The notes under the pieces are model-generated. The model did not search any database. It was not told the origin of the DNA and saw nothing but the letters and a program-made list of their open reading frames with translations. From a virus: DNA of 64,000 bases. Both the position numbers and the translations under genes were made by a program. Location: positions 53,728 through 117,727 of IMG/VR virus record IMGVR_UViG_3300023174_003433. One strand, 5' to 3'. Of the stretch, positions 33,390 through 46,370 are shown piece by piece (position 1 is the stretch's first letter; each line of letters starts with the position of its first letter).

Positions 33390-33871
33390 GTGTACATTTT
33401 CAAAATACCTAACGTGGTCATGGTATCTGTGTGAAGTATACCAACACCACCTTCTCTACGCCATTGGTCAATATTAACTAGTGTATCATCAATCAATATT
33501 GAATTGGCATTAGAAAAATCTTTTTTCAATCTTTTACCTGGTACCAAATTGACCTTGAAACCAATGTTATGGGTTTGTAACCATGTTAGTTTCTGAGCCC
33601 TAATATCAGCATCACGTTTTTCGGATGATGTAGAAGATAATATCTCAGTAGGTATGTTTAACTTACTAAGATAGTTTAATAATGGTACAGCATCTGGCAT
33701 CAAATCTAGTGTTGCAAATTGTTGAGTGGCAATAAACTCACTAAAAAATTTATGAAACTCTTTTTTATTCTCTGCCTCTTTTGGTTCCATCTTGTACAAT
33801 TCTTTATACCGTTTATTAAAATCGGCAATCACACCATCCATGTCCAAGTAAATCTTTGTAATCTTATGCAT
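33386..33871 (-). CDS. HAD-family phosphatase (5'-nucleotidase type)
   Basis: 161 residues. The first HAD motif is IYLDMDGVIADFNKRY (nucleophile Asp and acid/base Asp); a Ser/Thr follows in EILSSTSSE; Lys and the acidic motif appear in KKDFSNANSILIDDTLVNIDQW. The DMDGV..DF form is typical of the 5'(3')-deoxyribonucleotidase-like branch common in T4-like phages, which would adjust dNMP pools. It overlaps gp59 by 8 bp. Substrate is inferred. Confidence 0.82.
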   Translation of the reverse strand: MHKITKIYLDMDGVIADFNKRYKELYKMEPKEAENKKEFHKFFSEFIATQQFATLDLMPDAVPLLNYLSKLNIPTEILSSTSSEKRDADIRAQKLTWLQTHNIGFKVNLVPGKRLKKDFSNANSILIDDTLVNIDQWRREGGVGILHTDTMTTLGILKMYT

Positions 33872-34484
33872 GTTCTTTAATTTTTTCTTTCAATATTTCT
33901 TTAAACTTCTGTTTATTATAATTAATAAATGGTGTGTATTTCTTTACAATTCTTCGGTGTGTCGGCCAAATAATATCTTCAGTAATTTGTTTTTCCCATC
34001 GTGGCATACAGTCAAATATATCTATTAGAATACAAACTGTTTCTAATTTAATCTTATCGTGCATCATTTTGGTGATTAACATTGGCCAACCGCCATCAAT
34101 AGGTTTAAAGTAATCATCAATGTGCCAGAACTCAGCGCCATCAACACTATCGAACATATACATTATATCATTCTCAAAGGTATATGTCAAGCTTTGTTGA
34201 GTTTTTTGCCACTTGGTATAGTTCTCATCACCATCTTGAAGTAAATCACCAACCCAATCACCTTTGCCTTGAATAAAATTGGCAATATAAAAATCTTTGA
34301 GTTCCTCTAGATTGTATTTTCGGGATAATTTATAGAAATGGTATTTTGATTTGTTTGTACTAAATGTGGATTTAGATACATTCGTCTTACCATTGTATTT
34401 AAAGTAATCATAAGAATCGGAAGTAAAGTGCAGCTTCAATGCGTTCCATAGAGCATAGGCTGCAAAGCCTGTGTTCTCGGTCAT
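33864..34484 (-). CDS. gp59: Helicase loader gp59
   Basis: 206 residues (T4: 217). Matches gp59 across its length: YDYFKYNGKTNVSKSTFSTNKSKYHFYKLSRKYNLEELKDFYIANFIQGKGDWVGDLL, with FENDIMYMF in the middle and ETVCILIDIFDCMP near the end. gp59 loads gp41 helicase onto gp32-coated forks. It sits between gp33 and gp32 as in T4 and overlaps gp33 by four bases. Confidence 0.9.
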   Translation of the reverse strand: MTENTGFAAYALWNALKLHFTSDSYDYFKYNGKTNVSKSTFSTNKSKYHFYKLSRKYNLEELKDFYIANFIQGKGDWVGDLLQDGDENYTKWQKTQQSLTYTFENDIMYMFDSVDGAEFWHIDDYFKPIDGGWPMLITKMMHDKIKLETVCILIDIFDCMPRWEKQITEDIIWPTHRRIVKKYTPFINYNKQKFKEILKEKIKEHA

Positions 34485-34702
34485 ATCGGCAGTTTCGAAC
34501 TCTTTTTCAACAGATTATTTTCTTGTGCTTCATCTTTAATCTTTGCTTTGAGTGCAGACGATATAAGAGTGGCAGCAACTTCTATTTCGAGTCCAGTTTC
34601 TTTACAATGATGACAGATGGCATCCATATAACCTAGATGTTCATCTGCCACTAGTTTTTCAATCAGCATACTAAATTGCTTTATTTCTTCACGACTTGGC
34701 AT
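34481..34702 (-). CDS. gp33: Late transcription coactivator gp33
   Basis: 73 residues (T4: 112; shorter forms are usual in other T4-like phages). Typical sequence SREEIKQFSMLIEKLVADEHLGYMDAICHHCKETGLEIEVAATLISSALKAKIKDEA. gp33 bridges the host RNA polymerase beta flap to the sliding clamp, coupling replication to late transcription. The late octamers in this window are its expected targets together with a gp55 sigma encoded elsewhere. Confidence 0.88.
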   Translation of the reverse strand: MPSREEIKQFSMLIEKLVADEHLGYMDAICHHCKETGLEIEVAATLISSALKAKIKDEAQENNLLKKSSKLPI

Positions 34703-35625: not shown

Positions 35626-35633
35626 TTATTTAT
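35626..35633 (-). promoter_or_regulatory. T4-type late promoter
   Basis: GATAAATA on the minus strand, immediately after the terminal hairpin of the tmRNA coding piece and 60 bp upstream of the 92-residue gene. Well placed for late expression of the endolysin cluster. Confidence 0.55.
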
Positions 35634-35930
35634 CCAGGTGATTCTGTTGCTAAGTTCACCTGGTGAAACTCCGCTTACCTTTTAGGCAGCAAGTGCAAAC
35701 TTATTATCGTTAGCGTTTAATTTAATTTAGTGATTACGCCTTCTCTGGCGATTCTCCATTATTATACTAATCTGATAATCGAATCTATTCGCCCCCATTA
35801 GGAACTACACTAGACCAGTCTGGCTCTGTTTGCTACCGATAACTCGGTTCGTTCTAATGTAGTTGCTGGTGGAGGCGGTGGGATTCGCACCCACGTCTTA
35901 CCAAACGTTTTAATAACTTCTACGAATTAT
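35632..35930 (-). ncRNA. ssrA: Circularly permuted two-piece tmRNA
   Basis: On the minus strand the acceptor piece comes first and ends CGCCTCCACCA at 35867, with a T arm GTGGG-TGCGAAT-CCCAC. A 70-nt intervening loop follows, then the coding piece begins GGGGGCG at 35796. GGGGGCG pairs with CGCCTCC to give a 7-bp acceptor stem with the G3.U70 pair that specifies alanine. A D-like arm (GATTCGA) and a P2 helix (TTATCAGAT with GTTTGGTAA) also join the pieces. The tag frame GCT AAC GAT AAT AAG TTT GCA CTT GCT GCC TAA at 35714-35682 encodes ANDNKFALAA. A final 8-bp hairpin (CCAGGTGA/TCACCTGG) closes the coding piece. Ends are approximate. Confidence 0.93.
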
Positions 35931-36037
35931 TTCAAAATAAAAAGTATTGCTAGTACACCTACAGCGAATGCACAGGCACCCATGTAGAAAGCAAAACTTC
36001 TTACCTTATATTCTTTTACACAATCTTTGCTAGGCAT
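35927..36037 (-). CDS. Small membrane protein, 36 aa
   Basis: ATG at 36037, overlapping the preceding stop as TAATG. MPSKDCVKEYKVRSFAF is followed by one transmembrane segment (YMGACAFAVGVLAILFIL) and a terminal Lys. It lies directly upstream of the tmRNA and shares its transcript. Possibly a holin-like or signalling peptide; that is speculation. Confidence 0.65.
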   Translation of the reverse strand: MPSKDCVKEYKVRSFAFYMGACAFAVGVLAILFILK

Positions 36038-36162
36038 TATAGAATCCTTTCTAGTAACCAAATAACAAAAAGAAAACTTAGACCACCAGCCAAAAGTTTT
36101 AAAGCCCCGTACTGTCTTTCATTCTGCTCGGGAGTGCAGAGTTTTTTCCAATATTTGTTCAT
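36037..36162 (-). CDS. Small membrane protein, 41 aa
   Basis: ATG at 36162; product MNKYWKKLCTPEQNERQYGAL followed by a single hydrophobic segment (LLAGGLSFLFVIWLLERIL). The -10 of the upstream promoter is so close that the transcript would start about 3 bases before the ATG, so translation may be nearly leaderless. First gene of a unit that runs through the tmRNA. No family recognised. Confidence 0.62.
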   Translation of the reverse strand: MNKYWKKLCTPEQNERQYGALKLLAGGLSFLFVIWLLERIL

Positions 36163-36171
36163 AGTGTTCCT

Positions 36172-36200
36172 ATTATAAGTGTTTATACTTATATAGGCAA
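36172..36200 (-). promoter_or_regulatory. Sigma70 promoter for the tmRNA operon
   Basis: The minus strand has TTGCCT (36200-36195), a 17-bp spacer and TATAAT (36177-36172). It is upstream of two tiny membrane proteins and the permuted tmRNA, indicating early or constitutive transcription of the tmRNA. Confidence 0.7.
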
Positions 36201-36224: not shown

Positions 36225-36659
36225 TTATGGACACCAACTGGTCTTTGCCTCACCATAGTATTCCCGTGCATAACCTTGTTGGATCAACATGGAACGCAAG
36301 GACTGACCATTCAATAGTACGTCACCTAGGACACGACCACCATACTTGTCCCAATCCATTAATACCACTTGCCGAGTGGTAAATTGTTCTATCATCTTCT
36401 TGGTAAATGCTGTGGCGGCTTGGCCACGAGCATCCTCAGAAGGACATTTGGCACGAAAACCTTTTTCTGGCGTATCAACACCAAATACACGGATTGACAA
36501 TTCTTTCTTTAATGGATCTGGTAACCATAACGCTTGGAATGCCACAGTATCACCATCAATAACTCTAGTAATTGTTGCATTGTATGTTACGCCAGCTTTT
36601 TGTTGTTGAGCAAAAGCCAACATTGGTACAAATAATAATGTAAGTAATATTTTTTTCAT
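36225..36659 (-). CDS. Secreted thermonuclease-family nuclease
   Basis: 144 residues. Signal peptide MKKILLTLLFVPMLAFA with cleavage before QQQ. The SNase core shows VIDGDTV (Ca-binding Asp), IRVFGVDTPEKG (Arg and Glu), DWDKYGGRVLGDV (third catalytic-type Arg) and GYAREYYG. The family hydrolyses DNA and RNA with calcium. Export to the periplasm would let it destroy incoming DNA of competing phages or salvage nucleotides. That role is inference. It overlaps the PD-(D/E)XK gene by four bases. Confidence 0.88.
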   Translation of the reverse strand: MKKILLTLLFVPMLAFAQQQKAGVTYNATITRVIDGDTVAFQALWLPDPLKKELSIRVFGVDTPEKGFRAKCPSEDARGQAATAFTKKMIEQFTTRQVVLMDWDKYGGRVLGDVLLNGQSLRSMLIQQGYAREYYGEAKTSWCP

Positions 36660-37324
36660 TTGTATTGGTCCTTATAAAATTGTATGGCCTTTACCAAACC
36701 ATCGATATGATGTTCTGTTTTTTCTTGGAACAATAAAGGTTGTTCATCTTGTACTGCCATGATAATGACCAAATTATTTATTGGTGTGCCAATCAATTCT
36801 TCATACATGAGTGCATATGCTGATGTTTGCCAGAAATAATCTTCAATCTCAACTTTAGATTTTATTTTCTTAGATGTTTTAAAATCAATTACAGATAATA
36901 CACCATCAAACTCACCAATACAATCTACACGACCTGCCATACCTAATTGTTTAGACCATAGTGCTTGTTCTTGGTAATGAATATTATTGATACGATTGAG
37001 TAATGGCTTGATTGATTTAAACATTTCTTTGGCATCAGGCATAATATCACCTAACGATTCATTGTTTAAATAACGTTCACATAGTGTATGAACATTGGTG
37101 CCACGACCTGTGGCGGCCTTTGATATTCTATTGGCCTCTGCTTCACCAACTCGTTTACGCCATGCCATGATGGCATCTTTCTTTTGTGCACCAAGAACTG
37201 TGGTGACCGATGGCAACTTTGTGCCATCTTCTAATGTATAGTATCGTTTACCATCAGGAAAAGTTTCGGATTGTAAGTCTTTTAGTTCTTTTGGTGAACA
37301 GTAATTAAACATTCTTTTTCTCAA
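36656..37324 (-). CDS. PD-(D/E)XK exonuclease (RecB/Cas4-like)
   Basis: 222 residues; ATG at 37312 (MFNYCSPKEL) is an equally good start. Motifs: SVTTVLGAQKKDAIMAWRKRVGEAEANRISKAATGRGTNVHTLCERYL (the GxxxH..E motif I), then WSKQLGMAGRVDCIGEFDGVLSVIDFKTSKK, with Asp and the DFKTSK core of the nuclease. A QTSAYALMYEEL motif follows. Such enzymes are frequent in T4-like phages of aquatic hosts, where they probably process recombination ends or degrade host DNA. Substrate not determined. Confidence 0.85.
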   Translation of the reverse strand: MRKRMFNYCSPKELKDLQSETFPDGKRYYTLEDGTKLPSVTTVLGAQKKDAIMAWRKRVGEAEANRISKAATGRGTNVHTLCERYLNNESLGDIMPDAKEMFKSIKPLLNRINNIHYQEQALWSKQLGMAGRVDCIGEFDGVLSVIDFKTSKKIKSKVEIEDYFWQTSAYALMYEELIGTPINNLVIIMAVQDEQPLLFQEKTEHHIDGLVKAIQFYKDQYK

Positions 37325-37907
37325 ATTTAGGTATCAATAAAAATTCTCTTGTTATATCTATAATATAAATTAATCTTCTTTTGTTTGTTCTATTATATGC
37401 ACTATGTAATTCTCCATTATCAAAAGCAAACAAATTTGACCAATTGGTTGTTAAACCATTAACTTCAAAACCAGAATCTCCTTCGGGTATGATTAGTGGT
37501 ATATGTATTCTAACACTATTATGTGACCTATTTTCAACATCAACGTGTTTTTTAATTATTCCACCAGATTCTAAAATACTATAACCACTACAACCACAAT
37601 GTTTAATATATTTTTGTGTTAATGTTGATGCTGTTGGAAAAGCATTTGACACCTTTGGATCTAAAAACATATTACTCTCTTTTTTTTGTTCTGGCAAGAA
37701 GTATCGTAAACCTTCAACTTTCCAATCCACTTTTCCGGGAACATGATCTAAAATAGCCAATGGATTTGCCTTAGAATAGGGAATACCTCCCTTAAATGTG
37801 GTGTCAAAATCTTTGTGGTGGGCTAAAAATTCACTTCGTAAGTTTGGTACCAATGATAATAATTCATCCGCAATATGTATTTCTTCTTTTGTCCAAAGAT
37901 ATTTCAT
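37305..37907 (-). CDS. Aspartyl/asparaginyl beta-hydroxylase-like 2OG oxygenase
   Basis: 200 residues. The double-stranded beta-helix signature is visible: GGIIKKHVDVENRSHNSVRIHIPLII (HxD iron ligands), FEVNG, LFAFDNGELHSAYNRTNKRRLIYIIDI (distal His and the 2-oxoglutarate-binding Arg). This is the pattern of Asp/Asn beta-hydroxylase-like dioxygenases. First member of a run of oxygenase-like genes. Protein or small-molecule target unknown. Confidence 0.78.
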   Translation of the reverse strand: MKYLWTKEEIHIADELLSLVPNLRSEFLAHHKDFDTTFKGGIPYSKANPLAILDHVPGKVDWKVEGLRYFLPEQKKESNMFLDPKVSNAFPTASTLTQKYIKHCGCSGYSILESGGIIKKHVDVENRSHNSVRIHIPLIIPEGDSGFEVNGLTTNWSNLFAFDNGELHSAYNRTNKRRLIYIIDITREFLLIPKFEKKNV

Positions 37908-39424
37908 TGTATGCCCAACTTTAATTTTTTATATTCTAAAATGGTTTGATCCGCTTCTCGTATTTTTTTATTTAAAAAAGACTTGTCAAAATTGCCATCA
38001 ATAATGTCTTTAATATCAACACCCATACCAACCAATTCATAAACATCATGGTTGATACTAACTCCCTTATCGGCATTTCCATAAATCGATTTACCAGCTT
38101 TAATTCTGTGTTTTTCGGTCTCAATATTTAATTGATTAGTAATTGTTCTGGCCGTGTGCCAGTTCGTATATTTGTTTTTCCATATCATCACACCATTATT
38201 ATCCGTACCATATTTTATATCATCATCAACTTTTGGTATGGAATATTCTCCTGGTAACAGTTCAGTATAACCCCATTTGTCATATTCTTTTTCAAATTCA
38301 CTTAGGCGGCTTATTGAACCTTTTCTAATTAACAACGGCCACCAATCCCAATTATCGAACACTTCAAAGTTTTGGTCAAGTAACATTTGTTGGCTTTTAA
38401 TCACACTAGAGATTGGTTCTCCTGGTAAACCACAAATCATACCAGTATATGTATAGATTGGTTTGTATTTCTTTAATTGCCTAATTGCCTCAAACTGTCT
38501 TTCATTATCTAATCCTTTGCCAATGGCTTTCTTTGCTTCTGGATGAAATGTTTCTAAACCAAAAGTTGCAGCGACTAATCCTGTATCGGCCAACATTGGA
38601 ATTGTTTCAGGAAAAGCCTCAATTAAATCTGCTCTGAGAAATGCTGTATATGTTATTTTTATTCCACTTTTAGCAATTGCTTCAGCAACATATTCCAATT
38701 TAACTACATTATCATTAAAGGTATCATCATTAAACCAATAATTATTGACACCAAACATTTCATAATTTCTTCTCAACTCAGCAGATAGGTTATCCACATG
38801 ACGAATATAATCATTCTTTTTTTTACCTAAAAGTGGAAAGGCACAAAATCTACATCTAAAAATACAACCTCTACTAATTTCAATCGGTAAAAAATTGTTT
38901 TTAATCAAATCACTTTCCAACCATTTGATTGTCAGGTCGCTAGAATCATTCTTGTATAACATTTCCGCATTGATTGATTTTGTTCCACGATAAGGCACCC
39001 ACGGCAAATCATTCAAAAGCTTTTTATTAAGAAATTTCATGTAGTGTAACATGGCTTCTTCAGAATACCCCCAAACAATTCTATCTACTTGTGTCAAATC
39101 AACACCTTCAATAGGAGTTTCACTACCACCAATTAGTGTTTGTACTTTTGGATATTTTTCTTTGATGTGTTTGAATAGATAATTAATTTTATCGAATGCA
39201 TATATGAATGTTATACTGATACCAATAAACAAAGTTTTTGGTCCAATATATCTTTCACAAAGTAGTTCTAGTTCTCTTTCAGTAAAATTACCAAAATAAT
39301 CTATAACTTCAATATTGTAATTGTGTTGTTCTAAAAAAGTTCTTAGGCGTGCGGCACCAGCAGGACGACTAATTGTCCTAGTTCTTTCCATACCAGTGAA
39401 TATAATACCATGCCGATCATCCAT
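37904..39424 (-). CDS. B12-binding-type radical SAM protein
   Basis: 506 residues. Residues ~15-140 look like a cobalamin-binding Rossmann domain (PAGAARLRTFLEQHNYNIEVIDYFGNF...TLIGGSETPIEG) without a clear DxHxxG. The radical SAM core has Cys187, Cys191 and Cys194 in ISRGCIFRCRFCAF, followed by WFNDDTF and CGLPGEP motifs. This architecture is shared with BchE-like and methyltransferase or epimerase-type enzymes. It overlaps the neighbouring oxygenase by 4 bp. Together with the SPASM enzyme downstream it suggests modification of a peptide or glycan. Reaction unknown. Confidence 0.82.
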   Translation of the reverse strand: MDDRHGIIFTGMERTRTISRPAGAARLRTFLEQHNYNIEVIDYFGNFTERELELLCERYIGPKTLFIGISITFIYAFDKINYLFKHIKEKYPKVQTLIGGSETPIEGVDLTQVDRIVWGYSEEAMLHYMKFLNKKLLNDLPWVPYRGTKSINAEMLYKNDSSDLTIKWLESDLIKNNFLPIEISRGCIFRCRFCAFPLLGKKKNDYIRHVDNLSAELRRNYEMFGVNNYWFNDDTFNDNVVKLEYVAEAIAKSGIKITYTAFLRADLIEAFPETIPMLADTGLVAATFGLETFHPEAKKAIGKGLDNERQFEAIRQLKKYKPIYTYTGMICGLPGEPISSVIKSQQMLLDQNFEVFDNWDWWPLLIRKGSISRLSEFEKEYDKWGYTELLPGEYSIPKVDDDIKYGTDNNGVMIWKNKYTNWHTARTITNQLNIETEKHRIKAGKSIYGNADKGVSINHDVYELVGMGVDIKDIIDGNFDKSFLNKKIREADQTILEYKKLKLGIQ

Positions 39425-39427
39425 AAT

Positions 39428-40201
39428 TTATTTTTTAGTTAAATATTTTTCTTTGATTGCTTCAAAGAAATCAATATCTTCTTCAGTCAATTCAACACTT
39501 TCAATTTTTTCCATTTGGCCACGAATATAGTTACGATACAATTCAAAATCACCTTCATATTTAAAATTCTTTGTAATTTTTTTTGTATCGTAAGCATCCA
39601 TAATAATATGGTACCGATCTTCGTCAGAATCATTTCTAATTTGGTGCCAAAGATTTGTCCAAAGAATCCAAACACCACCATCTGCCGGCATGTGTAGATT
39701 TTTACCTTGGCATATGTGAACAGATTTTTTATTAGTCCACAATGGTATGTGTATGCGGGTCATATATTCGGAAGAATTTGCATCTCTATGAATTAAACTC
39801 TTTGAGTGTGCTTTTAGACAAGCAACTCTCGCTCTACACGGAGTTAATCCAAGCTCACGCAAATCATCCAATACTTTTTTAATTTCACCAACATACGCTT
39901 CTGTTGGTTTGTCATGTTCTAATCCATGATAAATGTTAAAATGTTTATATGCTTTCCAAATTAATTCTTGTGTAGGTAAAAAGGACTCTAATGTTTGTCC
40001 TTGTTCTAGTTGAATTGCTTCCCAGCCATCAGTCCATGTGGCATTTCTACTCAACAAACTCCAACCACCAAAACCATGATATTTTGGTGTTTCATATTCT
40101 TTACCTTGAACAACTTGGTCACCTAAAATGAAAACACTTTCACGGACTTCTTTTTTTAATTTTTCAATATCAACTGTATAATCTAATTTTTCAAAAAACA
40201 T
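39428..40201 (-). CDS. 2OG-Fe(II) oxygenase-like protein (beta-hydroxylase type)
   Basis: 257 residues. Core signature: LIHRDANSSEYMTRIHIPLWTNKKSVHI (HxD ligands and a substrate-strand RIHIP), then GGVWILWTNLWHQIRNDSDEDRYHIIMDAYD (distal His, Arg). The N-terminal GFGGWSLLSRNATWTDGW is conserved in Asp/Asn hydroxylase-like phage proteins. It lies between the B12 radical SAM gene and two further oxygenase-like genes. Substrate not known. Confidence 0.75.
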   Translation of the reverse strand: MFFEKLDYTVDIEKLKKEVRESVFILGDQVVQGKEYETPKYHGFGGWSLLSRNATWTDGWEAIQLEQGQTLESFLPTQELIWKAYKHFNIYHGLEHDKPTEAYVGEIKKVLDDLRELGLTPCRARVACLKAHSKSLIHRDANSSEYMTRIHIPLWTNKKSVHICQGKNLHMPADGGVWILWTNLWHQIRNDSDEDRYHIIMDAYDTKKITKNFKYEGDFELYRNYIRGQMEKIESVELTEEDIDFFEAIKEKYLTKK

Positions 40202-45780: not shown

Positions 45781-46370
45781 CAAAGGTACTCATGGGTAAG
45801 TGATGAATTCATTTTACGATACCATTCTTTCATAAAGGGTGGTACCTCTCTCTTATTTATCTTACCTTTCCATGACCAAAGATGTGATTTATTCATTTTG
45901 TAATAATTGTGATAGGACTTCAAGGAATCACCTGTCACCTTACATTCATCAGGCATGGCAGGTGTGGGACCAGTAAATTTACCTTTAGGTATATTGGTGG
46001 GCAATACCGCCAGATCAGGTATCAATCGTGCCGTAGCATGAACCTTGCCATAACGATAGGTAAATTCACTCAATAGTTCACACCACATATTATAAAGCCA
46101 CCGATAGTTTTCATTACTTTGGCGAACCCATATTGCAGAAGGATGATTCATCATAGTGGGTTTCATAAGGCGTTCTTCACGACCATCAGGCAACCGCCAT
46201 GCTTTGATTGACCGATTATTGGCCGACAATCTTTTGTATTCTTGGCCATCAAGCACTCGATGTGCTGTTGAAAGTAACTGAGCATACTCAATTACCATTT
46301 TGCAAACATGGCGGTCAACGTGCATTTGTGCACATTTTTTTACATCTTCATCAAGATAAAATATATTCAT
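45780..46370 (-). CDS. Conserved phage protein, 196 aa
   Basis: MNIFYLDEDVKKCAQMHVDRHVCKMVIEYAQLLSTAHRVLDG, then MMNHPSAIWVRQSNENYRWLYNMWCELLSEFTYRYGKVHATARLI, then PAMPDECKVTGDSLKSYHNYYKMNKSHLWSWKG. This family is very common in tailed phages with this order of motifs, but has no firmly assigned function. The many His, Trp and Tyr suggest a metal- or nucleotide-related enzyme. ATGA-type overlap to the membrane protein upstream. Confidence 0.78.
   Translation of the reverse strand: MNIFYLDEDVKKCAQMHVDRHVCKMVIEYAQLLSTAHRVLDGQEYKRLSANNRSIKAWRLPDGREERLMKPTMMNHPSAIWVRQSNENYRWLYNMWCELLSEFTYRYGKVHATARLIPDLAVLPTNIPKGKFTGPTPAMPDECKVTGDSLKSYHNYYKMNKSHLWSWKGKINKREVPPFMKEWYRKMNSSLTHEYL

Follow-up and report, generated by a model that had tools for sequence, protein, structure and literature searches.

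Comparison with Described Permuted tmRNAs

Permuted, two-piece tmRNAs have been described in bacteria and in phages. The tmRNA of phage Melnitz has been reported as two-piece, and 53 of 133 unique phage tmRNA structures belonged to this class (PMC9004378). Permuted tmRNAs scoring over the cut-off were found here in CcrRogue, CcrBL9 and Synechococcus phage BUCT-ZZ01, and those that were inspected lacked a tmRNA annotation in the records; they were also found in Melnitz and HTVC008M. Given these named phages, the published survey and the tmRNA database, phage-borne permuted tmRNA is already known. A sequence-only reading of the window (the whole stretch of 64,000 nucleotides analyzed here) was right about the kind of gene present, but wrong or unproven as to its lineage and novelty. 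What is new is the mosaic make-up, the window gene included, and the gene-bearing spacers of relatives; the window element alone is of a known kind.

Melnitz (a methylophage) and HTVC008M (a pelagiphage) are, like the phage of the window, T4-like, and carry the tmRNA at the same locus near gp33, gp59 and exonuclease genes. In Melnitz, a glutamine riboswitch lies directly after the tmRNA, whereas none is present at the window. The Melnitz spacer (142 nt) contains a conserved ORF, whereas the window spacer is 70 nt long and empty, and tag and head also differ. The Caulobacter phages CcrRogue and CcrBL9 share with the window a UGC T-loop with an AG D-loop, but they belong to another phage group and have different tags, e.g., ANDNAPFAVREAIAA. 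A broad DNA search of named phages returned short shared stretches only. The window gene agrees with the Rfam families RF04321, RF01849 and RF01850 in the order of its parts, acceptor stem, T arm, P2 and tag, and differs in having a longer spacer than the bacterial genes examined (n = 29; 10–47 nt, one at 115 nt); the median of 94 phage genes is 68 nt.

A homing endonuclease in a part that is removed also occurs in bacterial tmRNA genes interrupted by group I introns that encode LAGLIDADG endonucleases (PMC11915505). Those introns are self-splicing and lie in the T-loop, whereas the HNH genes of the relatives described below lie in the permuted spacer, where no splicing is needed. Endonucleases are mentioned in the tmRNA database paper only in group I introns, and a full-text literature search of incomplete coverage returned no report of protein genes in permuted-tmRNA spacers.

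Detection and Anatomy of the Window Gene

The window belongs to a virus record of 117.7 kb, possibly a fragment. The Rfam model RF04321 (tmRNA_permuted; gathering score 47) matched positions 35927-35682 of its minus strand over the full model with 102.9 bits (E = 6e-19), in agreement with the earlier proposal of a phage-encoded two-piece tmRNA whose acceptor half lies upstream of the coding half. ARAGORN, run on the window, reported a tRNA-Tyr only and missed the tmRNA gene. The match is not due to chance, since 47 of 80 related contigs match as well and compensatory pairing extends across both pieces.

All features lie on the minus strand. The acceptor piece (35867..35927), delimited by RF04321, sequence and covariation with the coding piece, consists of the P2 3' strands, the T arm GTGGG-TGCGAAT-CCCAC (35894-35878), the acceptor 3' strand CGCCTCC (35877-35871) and A73-CCA (35870-35867). 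It is followed by the 70-nt spacer (35866-35797), which, as had been proposed earlier and is supported here, would have to be lost. This spacer holds a hairpin (ACCGA..TCGGT), conserved with compensatory changes, and a clamp stem (AACTACA..TGTAGTT); inspection of its sequence revealed no protein cargo. The coding piece through the tag end (35682..35796), delimited by the same three kinds of evidence, begins with the acceptor 5' strand GGGGGCG (35796-35790) and the D-loop AATAGATTCGA (35789-35779), and continues with the P2 5' strands, the pre-tag hairpin CGCC-AGAGAA-GGCG (35737..35750) and the tag frame (35682..35714). The pre-tag hairpin, a short cassette, occupies the PK1 position and is by sequence a simple 4-bp hairpin. 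The tag frame, with resume codon GCT, reads GCT AAC GAT AAT AAG TTT GCA CTT GCT GCC TAA and encodes ANDNKFALAA followed by a stop. A 3' terminal hairpin, CCAGGTGA..TCACCTGG, with the motif GCAACAGAA (35634..35663), matched the alpha_tmRNA consensus in the model alignment. The positions previously assigned to the acceptor strands, CCA, T arm and tag were all exact. As that reading had also described, the acceptor stem has 7/7 pairs with the G3.U70 alanine identity pair and a CCA end; the tertiary-contact bases are G55 in the T-loop and A18 in the D-loop.

The window gene exceeded the gathering score of the alpha model RF01849 (59.4 bits vs. 50), while the beta model RF01850 gave 73.9 bits, more than the alpha model, but under its own gathering score of 84. 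The proposed link to Betaproteobacteria and Burkholderiales is therefore not supported; the ANDxxxALAA tag, which had been taken as a betaproteobacterial sign, is not diagnostic of any lineage. Passing the alpha model leaves the lineage unproven because heads are exchanged, one phage body bearing alpha-type or beta-type heads depending on the relative. The T-loop UGCGAAU with an A18 D-loop is a variant also found in the alphaproteobacterium Rhodobacter capsulatus. A scan of bacterial genomes for the shared T arm returned mostly Elusimicrobia, Acidobacteria and others, none of them linkable to the phage.

Conservation and Selection among Relatives

Relatives were fetched via the gp59-like helicase loader, which yielded 80 contigs. 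Among the 47 with a tmRNA match, 46 matched over the whole model, and the 47th was the spacer-split gene of L038 (in G033), which scored under the cut-off. Scanning viral contigs for a sequence pattern returned 114 stretches, which, combined with the gp59 set, comprised 76 distinct genes.

All 39 distinct heads had 7/7 acceptor pairs and G3.U70. Pairs 4–6 alternated between G-C, C-G, A-U and U-A, with the strands on opposite sides of the spacer; in a further head (L028), pair 2 was swapped to U-A and G3.U70 was kept. An RNAalifold consensus of 55 genes recovered P2, the T stem, the acceptor stem and the spacer hairpin with compensatory changes, which substantiates the suggested P2 pairing between the pieces. 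Position 18 of the D-loop covaried with position 55 of the T-loop, U55 occurring with G18 and G55 with A18 (22:0 vs. 0:35 distinct heads). The tags comprised 45 distinct nucleotide sequences encoding 24 peptides, with a pN/pS of 0.35; residues A1, N2 and A10 were invariant, residue 6 was always Y or F in 10-aa tags, and variation was concentrated at residues 4, 5 and 7. The tag frame was intact in nearly all complete copies, and the resume region was conserved. The tag ANDNKFALAA named in the sequence-only reading is thus upheld by its frame, resume codon, stop and AA end as well as by peptide selection across relatives.

Taken together, the invariance of G3.U70, the covariation in the acceptor stem and P2, and the purifying selection on the tag indicate a working tmRNA gene; they demonstrate selection in the family rather than function in this particular phage. 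The gene is accessory: in two close relatives, L020 and L021, whose gp59 is 87% identical, everything between the start of the staphylococcal-nuclease-like gene and the tmRNA end is missing, with 14 nt remaining at the junction.

Proposed Mode of Action

We consider it probable that the phage carries here a working version of the circularly permuted tmRNA gene, whose RNA is processed and charged by the host and rescues ribosomes. Judging from the family, host enzymes of tRNA maturation would cleave a single transcript so that the spacer is lost and the acceptor and coding pieces are released, which the acceptor stem and P2 would hold together. Recognition of G3.U70 by the host alanyl-tRNA synthetase would lead to charging. 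No SmpB was detected in the 117.7-kb record (which may be a fragment) or in another 11 phage records, including several complete ones, so host SmpB would be needed and, with EF-Tu, would deliver the phage tmRNA to stalled ribosomes. ANDNKFALAA would then be appended as a degradation tag and addressed to host ClpXP/SspB-type machinery. The likely benefit to the phage would be that ribosomes are freed and recycled from mRNA cut during infection; the earlier idea that products of degraded host mRNA are marked by the phage tmRNA is plausible.

Mosaic Structure of the tmRNA Gene

The tmRNA gene is a mosaic in which the head, the pre-tag cassette plus tag, and the 3' domain assort almost independently. 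Seventy genes were cut into modules and the identity matrices were correlated. The two P2 halves were correlated at 0.79 despite flanking the head on either side, and modules within the head at 0.48–0.62, whereas the correlation of P2 with the head was just 0.13–0.26 and that of the pre-tag cassette with all other modules −0.02 to 0.14. Strict double discordance was found in 0/70 genes between T arm and pre-tag cassette; the counts were 8 for spacer vs. cassette, 18 for spacer vs. 3' domain and 8 for cassette vs. 3' domain. Individual pairs illustrate the exchange. The window gene and that of L006 have near-identical flanks but differ in the cassette spanning pre-tag hairpin and tag (ANDNKFALAA vs. 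ANESVYKIAA), and L022 and L027 have a common body with different heads, that of L027 carrying an alpha-type GGC T-loop. The pre-tag cassette itself is short in the window and 60 nt long in the alternative form of relatives. Since the permuted order puts the T arm, acceptor strands and D-loop side by side in the DNA, the head could be exchanged in one piece. The gene as a whole evolves through exchange of its three modules. The approximately 95 distinct phage tmRNA genes include natural head and tag swaps, which would be informative on the acceptance of such RNAs by SmpB, AlaRS and ClpXP/SspB across hosts.

The exchange of whole cassettes between close relatives, as seen in L006, is also what would be expected if the main role of the gene were to change the tag, that is, if the phage RNA competed with host tmRNA and gave nascent chains a tag of the phage's choice with a different fate (faster or slower degradation, or another protease), with cassettes exchanged to fit host proteases. 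In the same direction point the variability of residue 7 (A, R, K or L) and the occurrence of tags ending in YRLAA, YKIAA or FLMAA. However, selection maintains the AND...(Y/F) pattern and the LAA end that characterize bacterial tags, and most phage tags should therefore read like host tags. We regard tag change as the main role as unlikely, and ribosome rescue as the preferred reading.

Protein Genes in the Spacers of Relatives

In L038, the spacer is 517 nt long and contains a gene for a 152-aa HNH protein (phrog_655, homing endonuclease, 5e-14); the tmRNA halves around it are intact and match each other, and the tag is ANDNKFALAA. The corresponding empty form is found in L027 and L214, whose spacer is 40 nt long; L038 has the same 40 nt plus a 477-bp insert with a 6-nt direct repeat. 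A second HNH gene, 35% identical to that of L038 (phrog_655, 3e-12), fills a 642-nt spacer in three contigs from three samples (L304–L306), in which the acceptor strands match and the tag is ANDNEAFDYALAA. Both HNH proteins scored under the cut-off of the Pfam HNH model, and they are called endonucleases on the basis of PHROGs and the motif. The homology, the intact host gene and the known empty allele argue for spacer homing endonucleases in these relatives, with a predicted homing activity.

Smaller ORFs were also observed. The spacers of L039 and L059 (175 and 172 nt) are filled by 50-aa ORFs, each equaled in 1/2000 shuffles. The Melnitz spacer holds an ORF (MZ577097, about 46096-46257) that is preceded by a GGAGAAG site and is missing from the record, where ssrA is the sole annotation at this place; its peptide begins MFKWLSKTRLVVITRDYF. 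ORFs of this type occurred in 17 viral contigs with a pN/pS of 0.33, codon-position differences of 217/206/433 and an in-frame 24-nt indel; in some copies the ORF ends inside the spacer. The number of spacer ORFs of at least 20 aa counted across all phages was no better than in shuffles, and therefore only long ORFs are claimed, by homology, selection or a per-gene shuffle test. The Melnitz-type protein, hidden under the ssrA annotation of a cultured phage, is directly testable.

As judged from the sequences, then, spacers do carry cargo. As tRNA-type processing would remove the spacer, homing endonucleases and small protein genes could occupy it at no cost to the RNA, and in relatives this removed segment would be a place where protein genes are tolerated. 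We tentatively suggest, at somewhat less than an even chance, that the permutation provides an intron-like niche without an intron, in which cargo is harmless and gene conversion driven by homing helps to shuffle the head and the tag cassette, refitting the gene to new hosts; that homing caused the mosaic is put forward as a hypothesis. A spacer able to carry genes could explain in functional terms the retention of a permuted RNA gene.

The endonuclease genes in two phage groups, the empty and filled pair and the mosaic exchange could be taken further, to mean that the locus is maintained chiefly because it houses selfish endonucleases that spread it by homing, ribosome rescue being secondary. 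This is improbable, as endonuclease genes are present in only 2 of about 95 distinct tmRNA genes, and tag and stems are selected for rescue. We consider it very improbable that the RNA is a tRNA-like decoy blocking host trans-translation, for which the tag-less tmRNA of phage DS6A provides a precedent (cited in PMC11915505), given that the tag frame is under purifying selection and the resume region is conserved; a degradation tag selected at the level of its translation speaks against both decoy and relic. Least likely, and already largely refuted, is that the phage contains a decaying gene captured from its host, or that the gene is an assembly artifact, which the accessory nature of the gene and the chimeric look of mosaic genes could suggest, but which is contradicted by perfect stems in all distinct heads, by tag selection, by identical combinations in many independent samples and by the homologous locus in cultured phages.

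Several further observations were made around the spacers. A hairpin of the type CTGTCGAT..ATCGACAG, with ACTAAATATA in the loop, lies before both spacer endonuclease genes (L038 2675-2725, L305 200-250), immediately ahead of the ribosome site; it resembles the RNA switches preceding T4 homing endonucleases. Same-family HNH genes were found near permuted tmRNA genes, in divergent orientation, in L317 (G099) and L318 (G100). Upstream of the endonuclease-bearing tmRNA, L304 133-1589 contains ORFs that by eye resemble a phosphate transporter permease and ATPase (PstA/PstB). A bin titled Flavobacteriales (G118; L268, L376, L378, L379) contains three permuted tmRNAs, each on its own contig and two of them with possible spacer membrane microproteins; the contigs are probably phage sequences within the bin, and the membrane-like ORFs of L378 and L379 (28 and 30 aa; 24 and 12 of 2000 shuffles) are leads only.

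Genomic Setting

The neighborhood of the window gene is of T4 type, with gp32, gp59, gp33, endolysin, exonuclease and baseplate genes, which confirms the T4-like genome recognized earlier. The following features are also on the minus strand. The conserved neighbors are a gp59-like helicase loader (33864..34484; phrog_269, 4.8e-57) and a gp33-like late transcription regulator (34481..34702; phrog_254, 9.5e-19). Directly upstream of the tmRNA, two overlapping small ORFs of 41 and 36 aa (35927..36162) were identified from the sequence; they resemble single membrane spans by eye and had no Pfam match, and the last base of the second ORF's stop codon is the first base of the tmRNA model. A staphylococcal-nuclease-like endonuclease is encoded just upstream (36225..36659; PF00565, 2.5e-11), and, being a staphylococcal-nuclease homolog, was rejected as a homing enzyme.

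A consensus scan revealed a possible early promoter, TTGCCT-17-TATAAT (10/12; 36172..36200), a weak candidate given that shuffles of the region also give such sites. No T4 late promoter TATAAATA was found near the window tmRNA; this T4-type late promoter lies approximately 50 nt before the tmRNA T arm in L080, L304 and L318. The expression timing of the tmRNA may differ between phages with and without it.

Two other elements were recorded in the window. An abiF RNA (RF03085, 51.5 bits vs. a cut-off of 37) is located at 32226-32189 (minus strand), just downstream of gp32, with no recognizable AbiF protein among the scanned neighbors. Of ten other contigs searched, the closest relatives L007 and L009 have it and eight do not; it may be an antitoxin-like RNA directed at host AbiF. 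The stretch 37305-40201 (minus strand), which lies upstream of the exonuclease gene, encodes two Asp/Arg hydroxylase-like proteins and a B12-binding radical SAM protein.
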